Shown here piece after piece: positions 29,639-33,904 of a DNA stretch of 64,000 bases. The stretch is from NCBI GenBank assembly GCA_017541105.1, contig JAFXZS010000016.1, forward strand, positions 237,633-301,632, in the 5' to 3' direction. The notes beneath the pieces were generated by a model. It was not told the DNA's origin, searched no databases, and saw nothing but the letters and a program-made list of their open reading frames with translations. Numbering within the stretch: position 1 is the first letter of the stretch; each line of letters begins with the position of its first letter. The translations under genes and the position numbers were made by a program. Source of the stretch: Clostridia bacterium (GTDB lineage Bacteria; Bacillota; Clostridia; Christensenellales; Aristaeellaceae).

Positions 29639-29668
29639 TTGACACGGCATATCTGTATATGTTAGTAT
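29639..29668 (+). promoter_or_regulatory. promoter of the T-box operon
   Basis: TTGACA (29639-29644) and TAGTAT (29663-29668) are 18 bp apart. Transcription would start near 29675, directly before the T-box leader. Confidence 0.8.
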
Positions 29669-29674
29669 CTCGCT

Positions 29675-29949
29675 TGTAACTGAATAGGAAAGACGATGAA
29701 GGAAAGAATGTTTCCCGGGTGGTTTCAGAGAGTTGCCGTTCAGCTGCGAGGCAATACCGGAAAGGAAACTGACTGCTTCCGGAGTTGATTCTGTGAAAGG
29801 GTTCTTCCCCCGGTAATAGAATCCGGCCGCCCCGTAATCGGCTGAGGATTTGTCAGAATCCAAGAGAGACTGCATATACTGCAGTAACAAGGGTGGTACC
29901 GCGATGTTTTTCGTCCCTGAGGCCGGATGGCTTCAGGGTTTATTTTTCA
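29675..29949 (+). ncRNA. T-box riboswitch leader with terminator
   Basis: A leader of about 275 nt that should sense an uncharged tRNA. The diagnostic T-box sequence AAGGGTGGTACCGCG is at 29889-29903. It is followed by the terminator: CCCTGAGGCC (29915-29924) pairing with GGCTTCAGGG (29929-29938), then a T-rich tail. Upstream, the AGAGAGTTGCC...GAGGCAA region (about 29727-29753) matches Stem I features. The specifier is hard to fix by eye. GAAA-CTG-AC around 29765-29773 gives CTG (Leu, 29769-29771) as best candidate; ACT (Thr) and GAC (Asp) in shifted registers are not excluded. Leu would suit the LeuA-like gene that follows. Confidence 0.92.
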
Positions 29950-29963
29950 GGAGGATGAAGGAA

Positions 29964-31388
29964 ATGGAAAACTCTAAGATTGTCAGATTTTGCGACTGTA
30001 CGCTTTGCCAGGGTGAAAAAACACCTGAAATGAGTTTCAGGGAAAGAATTGAACTGTGCAGGCTTCTGGATCGCCTCAATGTTGACCTGATAGAATTGAC
30101 GGAGATTCGCCAGAAAAAAATCGACAGCCTTCTGATCAAATCCGTCTCCCAGACGGTTCAGCACGCGCAGATCGCCGTACCTGTTTTTCTGAATCCGGAG
30201 TCTGTGGGGATGACCTGGGATGCCCTGAAAGAAGCAAGGCATCCGCGCCTCCAGGTTCCCGCCTCTGTCAGCTCTGTCCAGATGGAATACCTTTATCATC
30301 TGAAACCTGCTGTTATGCTTGAAAAAACAGTTGATACGATTCGGGCATGCGTCTCCTGCTGCAGCGATGTTGAATTCATCGCACAGGATGCAACCAGGAG
30401 TGATCCGGCATTTCTGCGGAAAATTGTTGCCGCTGCCATTGAAGCCGGGGCATCCACGGTCACGTTCTGCGATACAGCCGGTTCCATGCTTCCGGACGAG
30501 GTTGCGGCCTTTCTGAGACCTCTCCTGTCGGATATTCCTGCGCTGTCGGAAATCACCGTTGGATATGCCTGCACGGATCCCATGAATCTGGCGGATGCCT
30601 GTGCAATCGCCGCGATTGCCTGCGGTATCCGTGAAATCAAGGCTGCCGCATTCAACACCGACAGTATATCTCTTAAAAATGTCGTCCGTATTCTTCATTC
30701 AAAGGGAAACTGCTTCGGTGTTACGGATCATATCGGAGTGGAAAAAATCCGCATGCTGACCAATCAGATTGAAACACTTTGCCGTGCGGGACTGGGCCAT
30801 CGTATCAATACAGCGGAATATCCCGGAGACGCGCTTCACGGACAGATTACCCTCAGCGCGCATGAATCAAAAGAATCCATCCAGAAAGCCGTCGTAAAAC
30901 TTGGTTACGATCTCACTGACGACGACCTTGAAAAAGTTTGGAGCCGTTTTCAAAACCTCTCAGACAAGAAAGATGTCATCACCATGAAGGAACTTGAAGC
31001 CATTATTGCGACAGAGGCCATGCAGGTTCCTCCTGCCTACGCGGATGTCCAGTATGTCATCAACACCGGTAACACAATAGGAGCGATGTCCCATATGATT
31101 CTTTCATTCCACGGGAAACCGCTGGAAGGCATTTCCGCAGGGGACGGCGCAATCGACGCTGCGTTCCGGTCCATAGAAACAGCCACAGGACGCCATTTCG
31201 AGCTGGATGATTTCCAGATTCAGTCCGTTACGGAAGGCCGTGAAGCCATGGGTGAAACGCTTGTCAAGCTCCGTTCTGACGGAAAGCTTTATTCCGGCAA
31301 AGGCATTTCAACGGATATTGTCGGTGCGAGTATTATGGCATATGTGAACGCACTGAATAAGATCATCTATGAGGAGGAAGAAACATGA
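29964..31388 (+). CDS. LeuA-like protein (HMGL fold plus LeuA regulatory domain) with altered active site
   Basis: A 474-residue relative of 2-isopropylmalate synthase. The N-terminal part has the HMGL-like TIM barrel and the C-terminal 120 residues have the LeuA allosteric domain (VINTGNTIGAMSHMI, then GDGAIDAAFRSIE and STDIVGASIMAYVNAL). The active site differs from true LeuA. The usual TTLRDGEQ motif reads CTLCQGEKT, replacing the catalytic Arg and the metal-binding Asp by Cys and Gln. The metal-binding HCHND reads YACTD, without either His. So ordinary isopropylmalate synthase activity is doubtful, while leucine-like sensing may remain (inference). ATG 29964 follows AGGAGG with 9-nt spacing. 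It is controlled by the T-box leader and overlaps the next gene by 4 nt. Confidence 0.82.
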   Translation: MENSKIVRFCDCTLCQGEKTPEMSFRERIELCRLLDRLNVDLIELTEIRQKKIDSLLIKSVSQTVQHAQIAVPVFLNPESVGMTWDALKEARHPRLQVPASVSSVQMEYLYHLKPAVMLEKTVDTIRACVSCCSDVEFIAQDATRSDPAFLRKIVAAAIEAGASTVTFCDTAGSMLPDEVAAFLRPLLSDIPALSEITVGYACTDPMNLADACAIAAIACGIREIKAAAFNTDSISLKNVVRILHSKGNCFGVTDHIGVEKIRMLTNQIETLCRAGLGHRINTAEYPGDALHGQITLSAHESKESIQKAVVKLGYDLTDDDLEKVWSRFQNLSDKKDVITMKELEAIIATEAMQVPPAYADVQYVINTGNTIGAMSHMILSFHGKPLEGISAGDGAIDAAFRSIETATGRHFELDDFQIQSVTEGREAMGETLVKLRSDGKLYSGKGISTDIVGASIMAYVNALNKIIYEEEET

Positions 31389-33904
31389 ATCTTTCATTTT
31401 CAACACGCGGATGGCGTGAAGAGGACTGGCAGATTCAGGTGGACGACGCATGCGAGATGCGTTTTCAGGGAATTGAAGTCTACAACCTTCATAAAATCTC
31501 TTCTCTGACAGACCGCGGCGCGGCATTCCATAAATACAACCGGTATGAAACCGAGCGCAACCTGCGTGAAAAAAACCTGAAGATTCCATGCCTGGATACC
31601 GCGGAAGATCTCAGCGATTCTTCGGCAGACCTTCACGGCCTGTTGAGTCTTTTTGAAATCGCAGCAGATATGCATATCCCCTACGTGGCGGTTTGTGCGC
31701 TGCATGACCGGGAGGATAACGTCAAAAAAGCGCTGGATTCCCTGCTTCCGCAGGCAAAAGAAATGAAAGCCACGCTTTTGATCAAGACGACCGGGATCTA
31801 TGCAAATACAAAACGCCTGTGTGAGCTGATGGATGAATATGCCTGTGATGAACTTGCCGCACTGTGGGATATGCATCATCCCTATCGTGATTATCATGAA
31901 TCTCCCGATACCACGATCCGCAATCTGGGCGGTTATGTCAAACACGTCCATCTTCGGGACTCAGATGAGGAATTGAATTACAATCTGATCGGTGAAGGCA
32001 CAATTCCCATTGTGGAAATGATGAATGCGCTTTCATCCATAGATTACAGCGGGTTCATTTCTCTGGAATGGAAACCTGAATGGATGGAGGATCTGACGGA
32101 CCGGGAAATCATTTTCTCGCATTTCCTTAATTACATGAATCGGTTTGACAATCCAAAGGGCAAGAAAAAAACCTTATATTTCAATCATGACGGTACAGGG
32201 CGTTATGTATGGAAAAAGGATGAACTGATTGATGAAACCTTCAGTCAGGTTCTTGACAGAATGGCATTGGAATTTCCGGACCAATATGCCTTCAAGTATA
32301 CGACACTGGATTATACGAGAACCTATTCCGAATTCCGGGAAGATGTGGATCATTTTGCAAGAGCATTGATTTCTCTTGGTGTACGTCCCGGCACAAAAGT
32401 CGCCATCTGGGCCACGAATGTTCCCGCGTGGTATATTACATTCTGGGCATGCACCAGAATCGGAGCCGTTCTCGTCACGGTCAATACAGCCTACAAAATT
32501 CATGAAGCCGAGTACCTGCTTCGCCAGAGTGACACGCATACTCTCGTGATGATTGAGAAAGCTCTGGACAGTAATTACAGGGAAATCATCAATGAATTGT
32601 GCCCGGAAATCATTGCATCAAAGCCCGGGGACGCGCTTCACTGCAAGAAGCTTCCGTTTTTACGGAATGTCATTACCGTGGACTACGCTCAGCCTGGCTG
32701 CCTGACCTTTGAGCAGGCTATGCGGAGGTATGACACGGTTTCCCATGAAACACTCCAGGCTTTTTCCGCCAGGGTAAAACCCGATGATGTCTGCAACATG
32801 CAGTATACTTCCGGAACGACCGGATTTCCCAAAGGGGTCATGCTGACAAACTATAACGTCGTAAATGACGGCAAGTGTATCGGCGACAGAATGGGTTTGT
32901 CCACTGCAGACCGGATGATGATCCAGGTACCCATGTTTCACTGCTTCGGTATGGTTCTGGCCATGACCGCTTCCATGACGCATGGGACAACCCTGTGTCC
33001 CCTGCCGTATTTTTCCGCAAAGAATTCCCTTGCCTGTATTCAGCAGGAGCAGATTACGTGCTTCCATGGCGTACCTACCATGTTTATTGCGATGTTTAAT
33101 CATGAAGATTATCGCAAAACCGATTTTTCTCATATGCGAACAGGCATTATGGCCGGTTCAGGGTGCCCTCCCGAACTGATGAAGAGAGCAGCCAGGCCCG
33201 ATGAAATGAATATGAGAGGAATTGTCAGCGTATACGGGCAAACAGAATCCTCCCCAGGAAGCACAATGTCCGCCTGGACTGATTCGCTGGAGCTGAGAAC
33301 GGAAACCGTCGGCTATGCCTTCCCCCACGTTCAGTGCAAAATCATCAATCCGGAAACCGGCGAGGAATTGCCGGACGGCCAGGACGGTGAATTCTGCTCA
33401 AGAGGTTACCATATCATGAAGGGGTATTACAAAATGCCCGAGGCAACCAACGCTGCCATTGATCAGGACGGATGGCTGCATTCCGGCGATCTTGCCCGCA
33501 GAAATCCGGACGGCACTTTCCTGATCACAGGCCGGTTAAAGGATATGATTATTCGCGGCGGTGAAAATATCTATCCAAAGGAAATTGAAGAATTCATTTA
33601 TACGCATCCCGATGTCGAAGATGTTCAGGTAATCGGTGTTCCTGATGCGCGCTACGGAGAAGCGGTCATGGCATGCATCATTCGAAAATCAGGTTCCTCC
33701 CTGACGGCTGAGGAGATGTCGGAATACATCCGGAGTCACCTGGCCCGGCACAAACTGCCCCAGTATATCGAATTTGTAGACAGCTTTCCGATGAATGCTG
33801 CCGGAAAGATCCTGAAATATAAGATGAGAGAGGAAGCGGCCCAGCGGCTTGGCCTGGTCGGAGCAGCGGGGATTGATACCGCAGGGAACCCAGGGAAATC
33901 CTGA
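31385..33904 (+). CDS. fusion of sugar-phosphate isomerase/epimerase-like TIM barrel and AMP-forming acyl-CoA synthetase
   Basis: An 839-residue two-domain protein. Residues 1-265 form an AP-endonuclease-2/xylose-isomerase-like barrel (RFQGIEVYN, ALWDMHHPY, VKHVHLRDSDE, ISLEWKPEW), as in hydroxypyruvate isomerases and inosose enzymes. Residues 275-825 are an ANL-superfamily acyl-CoA ligase: YTSGTTGFPKG near 475, YGQTESSPG, GWLHSGDLARR, GRLKDMIIRGGENIYP near 717, and the catalytic Lys808 in NAAGKILKYK. The frame runs through both domains without a break. The ligase half resembles medium/short-chain acyl-CoA synthetases; the acid activated is unknown. It is coupled to the LeuA-like gene (ATGA overlap) under the T-box. 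Confidence 0.88.
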   Translation: MNLSFSTRGWREEDWQIQVDDACEMRFQGIEVYNLHKISSLTDRGAAFHKYNRYETERNLREKNLKIPCLDTAEDLSDSSADLHGLLSLFEIAADMHIPYVAVCALHDREDNVKKALDSLLPQAKEMKATLLIKTTGIYANTKRLCELMDEYACDELAALWDMHHPYRDYHESPDTTIRNLGGYVKHVHLRDSDEELNYNLIGEGTIPIVEMMNALSSIDYSGFISLEWKPEWMEDLTDREIIFSHFLNYMNRFDNPKGKKKTLYFNHDGTGRYVWKKDELIDETFSQVLDRMALEFPDQYAFKYTTLDYTRTYSEFREDVDHFARALISLGVRPGTKVAIWATNVPAWYITFWACTRIGAVLVTVNTAYKIHEAEYLLRQSDTHTLVMIEKALDSNYREIINELCPEIIASKPGDALHCKKLPFLRNVITVDYAQPGCLTFEQAMRRYDTVSHETLQAFSARVKPDDVCNMQYTSGTTGFPKGVMLTNYNVVNDGKCIGDRMGLSTADRMMIQVPMFHCFGMVLAMTASMTHGTTLCPLPYFSAKNSLACIQQEQITCFHGVPTMFIAMFNHEDYRKTDFSHMRTGIMAGSGCPPELMKRAARPDEMNMRGIVSVYGQTESSPGSTMSAWTDSLELRTETVGYAFPHVQCKIINPETGEELPDGQDGEFCSRGYHIMKGYYKMPEATNAAIDQDGWLHSGDLARRNPDGTFLITGRLKDMIIRGGENIYPKEIEEFIYTHPDVEDVQVIGVPDARYGEAVMACIIRKSGSSLTAEEMSEYIRSHLARHKLPQYIEFVDSFPMNAAGKILKYKMREEAAQRLGLVGAAGIDTAGNPGKS

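Follow-up and report, generated by a model that had tools for sequence, protein, structure and literature searches.

Leucine synthesis from isovalerate by rumen bacteria was recognized in the 1960s; its expected reactions comprise activation of the acid, reductive carboxylation and transamination. Here, an operon of two genes was analyzed in a window of 64,000 nucleotides from a genome of the Aristaeellaceae (class Clostridia; assembly GCA_017541105.1, contig JAFXZS010000016.1, positions 237,633 to 301,632 of the forward strand), in which a T-box leader precedes a homologue of 2-isopropylmalate synthase LeuA (gene A) and a fusion of a triosephosphate isomerase (TIM) barrel with an acyl-coenzyme A (CoA) ligase (gene B). 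We propose that this operon probably forms the first, leucine-controlled step by which leucine is made from isovalerate, with A as the leucine sensor, and that it very probably allows gut and rumen Clostridia in which the normal leucine pathway has been lost to start leucine from isovalerate. The operon would share with the known physiology its expected reactions and its setting in rumen and gut anaerobes, and would add to it candidate genes, leucine-specific control and a LeuA that is predicted to be dead.

Leucine synthesis in the rumen by carboxylation of isovalerate is stated in excerpts of PMC7356843, which cite Allison (references 42 and 47 therein). For T-box riboswitches, a 2008 survey (PMC2494555) reports a T-box before leuA in two Proteobacteria, and the word "acyl-CoA" is absent from its main text. 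For Staphylococcus aureus, excerpts of PMC10026030 report that the methylbutyryl-CoA synthetase MbcS activates 2-methylbutyrate and isobutyrate, and isovalerate poorly. Among the titles and abstract openings of the best-ranked literature matches, which covered few subscription papers, nothing tied the gene pair, its T-box or a dead LeuA to isovalerate carboxylation, and no gene named for an isovalerate-activating ligase was found. An earlier note on the window, made from its letters alone, had known of no described pathway with this pair: the pair itself was indeed not seen described, whereas isovalerate carboxylation to leucine already is. Physiology and riboswitch class are known; the candidate genes and the dead LeuA are apparently undescribed.

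Predicted Control of the Operon by Leucine

Like described T-box riboswitches (RF00230), the leader of the window (29687 to 29921; all features of the window given here are on the plus strand) passes the gathering score of the Rfam model (104.7 bits against 93, E 4.8e-22) and has a readable specifier, the leucine triplet CUG at 29773 to 29775, which the alignment to the model places there and the coordinates of which were verified. The specifier was taken at this alignment position throughout, and the relative L106 shows the textbook context GAA-CUC-A. Among 62 distinct leaders of the pair (72 rows minus 10 repeats of a locus fetched twice), CUG was read in 27, CUC in 28 and CUU in 7, with no other codon: the third base varies and the encoded amino acid, leucine, is constant in 62 of 62. 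The CUG leaders are not independent, since 25 of the 27 come from the genus of the window. Motif matches in L099 and L103 (at 11475) were excluded from the count because there is no T-box around either. Other frames of the specifier (ACU, UCU) were dropped, as only the CUN frame yields one amino acid across all leaders. The operon's T-box thus reads leucine, the amino acid that the earlier note had named as the probable one. The gathering score was passed by 17 of the 20 loci of relatives given to the T-box model, which was applied to only 9 of the 35 distant loci.

The leader is preceded by a sigma-70-type promoter (29639 to 29668; TTGACA and TAGTAT at a spacing of 18 nucleotides, with TG before the second hexamer). 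Three promoter-like sites were found compared to 0.7 expected from shuffled sequence, weak evidence taken alone, but the box recurs in aligned upstream regions of relatives. Within the leader, the bulge AAGGGTGGTACCGCG (29889 to 29903), which presumably pairs with the 3' end of the tRNA, is kept in aligned leaders, and an intrinsic terminator follows (29915 to 29948), composed of a 10-pair stem (29915 to 29938) and a T-rich tail. With both terminator and antiterminator bulge present, antitermination by uncharged tRNA is predicted. Gene A (29964 to 31388, 474 amino acids) and gene B (31385 to 33904, 839 amino acids) share four nucleotides (ATGA), and the complete arrangement of promoter, leader, terminator and overlapping genes is as first described from the letters of the window.

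Loss of the Catalytic Residues in the LeuA Homologue

Gene A has the Pfam domains of LeuA (TIGR00973; PF00682, HMGL-like, and PF08502, LeuA_dimer), of which the regulatory LeuA_dimer domain (residues 339 to 467) is well preserved (95.5 bits against a cut-off of 24.9). It differs from LeuA in scoring far under the cut-offs of the LeuA models of NCBIfam (at best 284 bits against 532; 240 against 598.7 for TIGR00973), in adjoining a ligase and in having lost all three catalytic metal ligands. These ligands, in the LeuA family an Asp in the RDGEQ motif and both His residues of HxH, are absent in all A proteins compared: none of 34 keeps any of the three. The GERAGN motif is degraded as well, and a single member, that of L096, retains more of the ancestral motif than the others. 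On both grounds, A is predicted to be a catalytically dead homologue of LeuA. The earlier note's reading of an altered active site next to an intact regulatory domain held up.

Four canonical LeuA proteins define a set of invariant positions, of which A keeps 56% in the regulatory domain, 31% in the barrel and 16% in the linker. In a quick tree, a single branch (support 100) separates the A proteins from 10 canonical LeuA proteins, and in a midpoint-rooted drawing the members of G095, G093 and G165 stand nearest to canonical LeuA. A has probably been retained as a leucine sensor through its regulatory domain, and would then be a likely example of a biosynthetic enzyme that has lost its catalysis and persists solely on account of the allosteric domain.

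The Barrel and Ligase Fusion

Gene B joins AP_endonuc_2, AMP-binding and AMP-binding_C domains in a single frame, as the earlier note had described it. The ligase part (about residues 281 to 823, 32225 to 33853) has intact catalytic motifs and scored 298 bits with PF00501 and 67 bits with PF13193. In 35 of 35 B proteins, both its core motifs and the C-terminal AGK lysine are present, and 297 of 564 positions are identical in at least 33 of these 35 sequences; judged by these residues, the ligase looks active. The best NCBIfam match of B, among the best 25 of 112 matches, was PRK12583, with 660 bits against a cut-off of 832. B would share with MbcS the AMP-forming activation of exogenous short branched acids; it differs from MbcS in scoring best with PRK12583, and the MbcS-like genes encountered here are separate neighbors of the pair with isoleucine or valine T-boxes.

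By contrast with the ligase, the TIM-barrel part (residues 1 to 265, 31385 to 32179) has the metal-ligand set K-D-H-E instead of E-D-H-E, presumably the set of xylose-isomerase-like barrels (PF01261). All four ligands are complete in 4 of 35 B proteins and at least one is lost in 31, and the barrel is accordingly predicted to be degenerate. At L147 and L148, ligase and barrel are separate adjoining genes and the barrel ligands are intact by eye; at L148, subunits of a 2-oxoacid oxidoreductase come after the two genes. The best NCBIfam matches of the barrel, far under cut-off, are sugar epimerases. The full ligand sets of L147, L148 and the four fused barrels suggest that the barrel was once catalytic beside this ligase, and the losses in 31 of 35 that the present system seems to work without barrel chemistry. 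Given the metal ligands missing from A (34 of 34) and from most TIM sites (31 of 35), the ligase is the only part of the system with a likely activity. The earlier note's idea of an unusual organic acid as the operon's product was consequently not sustained: an ordinary acid, isovalerate, is the likely substrate in view of the partner genes described below, a VorB-type oxidoreductase and IlvE, and of the rarity of leuB and ilvD.

Distribution of the Gene Pair

Full-length A was detected in 31 of 61 genomes, namely 27 of 37 of the genus of the window (its own included) and 4 of 24 of the rest of the order, and A was found in 26 of 293 genomes of a class sample (counting that of the window and one A truncated at the end of its contig). 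It occurs in 24 named loci, once truncated; the titles of all 24 describe uncultured or metagenome-derived material, and 13 name the gut of a ruminant (12) or a horse (1) as source. At each of 35 loci fetched with flanks, B came immediately after A (contig ends truncate one A and one B), and in the loci fetched earlier, too, B followed A directly wherever B was in reach. The 40 pair genomes carry 21 family labels, all within one class. The earlier note had taken the pair for a coherent system, an idea that would fail if the pair occurred only here or if specifier and enzymes were unrelated; the pair proved widespread, its leaders read leucine codons, and the partner genes, by their inferred function, fit leucine synthesis.

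In a phylum sample outside the class, a relative of B (E <= 1e-200) was present in 16 of 298 genomes, as the whole fusion in 14 and as the ligase alone in 2. In 15 of these 16 loci (all except that of G598), which were fetched, A was found in L146 and was absent from the flanks of the other 14, the search for A outside the class having covered the flanks of B only and not the rest of those genomes. Eight of the 15 loci have a readable T-box before B, with no A in the flanks and CUC in 8 of 8; one has it before A (CUC, within the 62 leaders counted above) and six are without.

Gene Content and Partner Genes

The gene content of 40 pair genomes was compared to that of 32 genomes in which the pair is absent; 29 of the 32 belong to families with pair genomes among their members. 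leuB over cut-off was present in 4/40 compared to 27/32 (Fisher p 8.6e-11), leuC in 7/40, three of the seven being genus mates without leuB, compared to 27/32 (p 1.3e-8) and ilvD in 4/40 compared to 18/32 (p 2.8e-5), whereas VorB was present in 40/40 compared to 19/32 (p 4.9e-6); these tests ignore kinship, and 11 of the 40 pair genomes belong to one genus. Canonical LeuA over cut-off was found in 2 of 25 pair genomes of the class sample, the window's own excluded (G093 and G165), and in 93 of 267 others. The oxidoreductase and the branched-chain aminotransferase of the proposed route thus co-occur with the pair: VorB in all 40, and IlvE (IlvE_II) in 14 of the 14 pair genomes tested. The genome of the window has both, a three-subunit oxidoreductase of this type (VOR), with its genes together and away from the pair, and IlvE. 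Among B genomes outside the class, VorB was present in 16/16 and leuB in 13/16, compared to 8 and 5 of 11 genomes without B. It is A, more than B, that accompanies the loss of the normal leucine pathway, or nearly so.

Three genus mates (G001, G008 and G035) have a LeuC-like protein over cut-off while leuB over cut-off is absent; this protein may be another dehydratase.

VorB lay in the flanks of 20 of 59 loci (L034-L057 and L093-L127, L034 and L122 being one place), in a same-strand run with the pair in 7 (L049, L050, L096, L099, L100, L113 and L121) and on the facing strand in 13; ilvE is included in five of the seven runs. These neighbors were named by NCBIfam at one locus (VorB 541 bits, cut-off 399; IlvE 506 bits, cut-off 307) and by similarity at the others. 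The second neighbor is an XRE-cupin protein fused to or beside an MbcS-like ligase with T-boxes of its own. The 29 leaders of the MbcS-like ligases read isoleucine in 23 and valine in 6 (AUC 22, GUA 5 and GUC 1 by script; AUC 1 by eye), and occur at L037-L039, L041, L043-L048, L055, L057, L096, L100, L102, L104-L106, L111, L112, L115, L116 and L118-L120. In a tree of these ligases, the isoleucine and the valine labels are each clustered (values as low arose in 0 and 1 of 500 shuffles), but not as two clean clades.

Proposed Role and Alternative Explanations

Following this, we propose that, when leucine is short, uncharged tRNA-Leu would antiterminate the T-box and A and B would be made. The ligase of B would convert exogenous isovalerate, ATP and CoA to isovaleryl-CoA, from which a VorB-type 2-oxoacid:ferredoxin oxidoreductase, working in the carboxylating direction, would form 2-oxoisocaproate, and IlvE would transaminate this to leucine. 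A, its catalysis lost and its presumed leucine-binding domain kept, would most likely bind B and slow the ligase when leucine is plentiful, and would thereby bring back, now acting on the ligase, the feedback exerted by LeuA in the normal pathway. The MbcS-like neighbors would play the equivalent role for isoleucine and valine. For the wider proposal we see an even chance: the dead LeuA would be the leucine-sensing regulatory subunit of an acyl-CoA ligase, and ligases for leucine, isoleucine and valine, each under the T-box of the amino acid formed from its volatile acid, would be the first step of building the three branched-chain amino acids from volatile fatty acids in many gut and rumen Clostridia.

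Several observations weigh against this proposal. The 32 comparison genomes were hand-picked, and three of them (G037, G056 and G060) were chosen for canonical LeuA, which favors the contrast, while VorB is also present in 19 of the 32; no dedicated model was used for LeuA of the PRK03739 type. Four of the pair genomes (G084, G130, G093 and G165) retain leuB, leuC and ilvD, and proteins under the cut-offs were present in others, leuB-like in G047, G306 and G298 (227 to 265 bits) and IlvD-like in G105 and G106 (497 to 574 bits against 618). These four genomes, together with leuB in 13 of the 16 B genomes outside the class, argue that B is not tied to the pathway loss. At the loci inspected in the genus of the window, neither VOR nor ilvE adjoined the pair, and the genome of the window is only 62% complete. 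Nine of the 35 fetched pair loci gave no readable T-box before A, one of the nine being without upstream sequence; the pair sits within a longer same-strand run in L096 and L121. At L044 (6269) and L057 (6197), both on the minus strand, an isoleucine T-box precedes a ligase that groups with the valine-type ones, as though the gene of the isoleucine type had been lost. Moreover, VorB-type enzymes also run oxidatively on branched 2-oxoacids.

The last point would suit a role of A and B in leucine breakdown, from isovaleryl-CoA to isovalerate, with the T-box merely tuning expression. This is very improbable, as AMP-forming ligases work in the activating direction and leuB over cut-off is absent in 36 of 40 pair genomes; furthermore, a T-box raises expression under amino acid shortage, and specifiers matched function in the verified cases of PMC2494555. 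It is unlikely, too, that the isovaleryl-CoA formed by B mainly primes iso-branched membrane fatty acids, with leucine starvation inducing the operon because isovaleryl-CoA normally derives from leucine. MbcS is a precedent for other acids according to excerpts of PMC10026030, the leucine T-box would be explained equally, and B genomes outside the class mostly keep leuB (13/16); however, the seven same-strand VorB runs, five with ilvE, and VorB in all 40 pair genomes point to a 2-oxoacid and an amino acid, and leuB and ilvD are rare in pair genomes (4/40 each).

The two remaining alternatives assign chemistry to the other domains. The substrate of the ligase might be a different acid of leucine metabolism, for example 2-hydroxyisocaproate, 2-oxoisocaproate or a hydroxylated form of isovalerate, and the barrel might serve as an isomerase or an epimerase on a path to leucine that has not been described. 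The barrels with full ligand sets, unfused at L147 and L148 and fused in 4 of 35, and the matches to sugar epimerases speak for such a route, but with at least one ligand lost in 31 of 35 fused barrels and partner genes that fit simple carboxylation, we consider its chances slim. An A that is an active LeuA-like synthase of changed specificity, its unusual acid being activated by B, is hardly credible: its conservation and the L096 member with more of the ancestral motif would fit, yet neither the metal-ligand Asp nor either His is kept in any of 34 proteins, and outside the class B is encountered with no A in its vicinity. This reading was rejected on the lost active-site residues. Leucine-controlled entry into leucine synthesis from isovalerate is the explanation that we retain.

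Further Neighbors and Riboswitches

A search for further shared neighbors of the pair gave two clusters. Members of cluster C8 (L099 10663-11352 and relatives), conserved P-loop proteins of about 230 amino acids, lie beside a VorB subunit in many runs and match the iron-sulfur carriers MrpORP and ApbC weakly. Proteins of cluster C1 (L100 12903-13712 and relatives), of about 265 amino acids and amidohydrolase-like, come after or before the pair in several families; an NCBIfam match was not found for them. Elsewhere in the genome of the window, T-box-like leaders under the gathering score were seen in L002 (1501-1759, 79.8 bits) and L003 (1501-1702, 48.5 bits), which by eye may read UGG and ACC, respectively. 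On contig C8 of the same genome, a flavin mononucleotide riboswitch (L128 14210-14333, 108.4 bits), for which a link to the operon was not seen, lies a few kilobases from the VOR genes.

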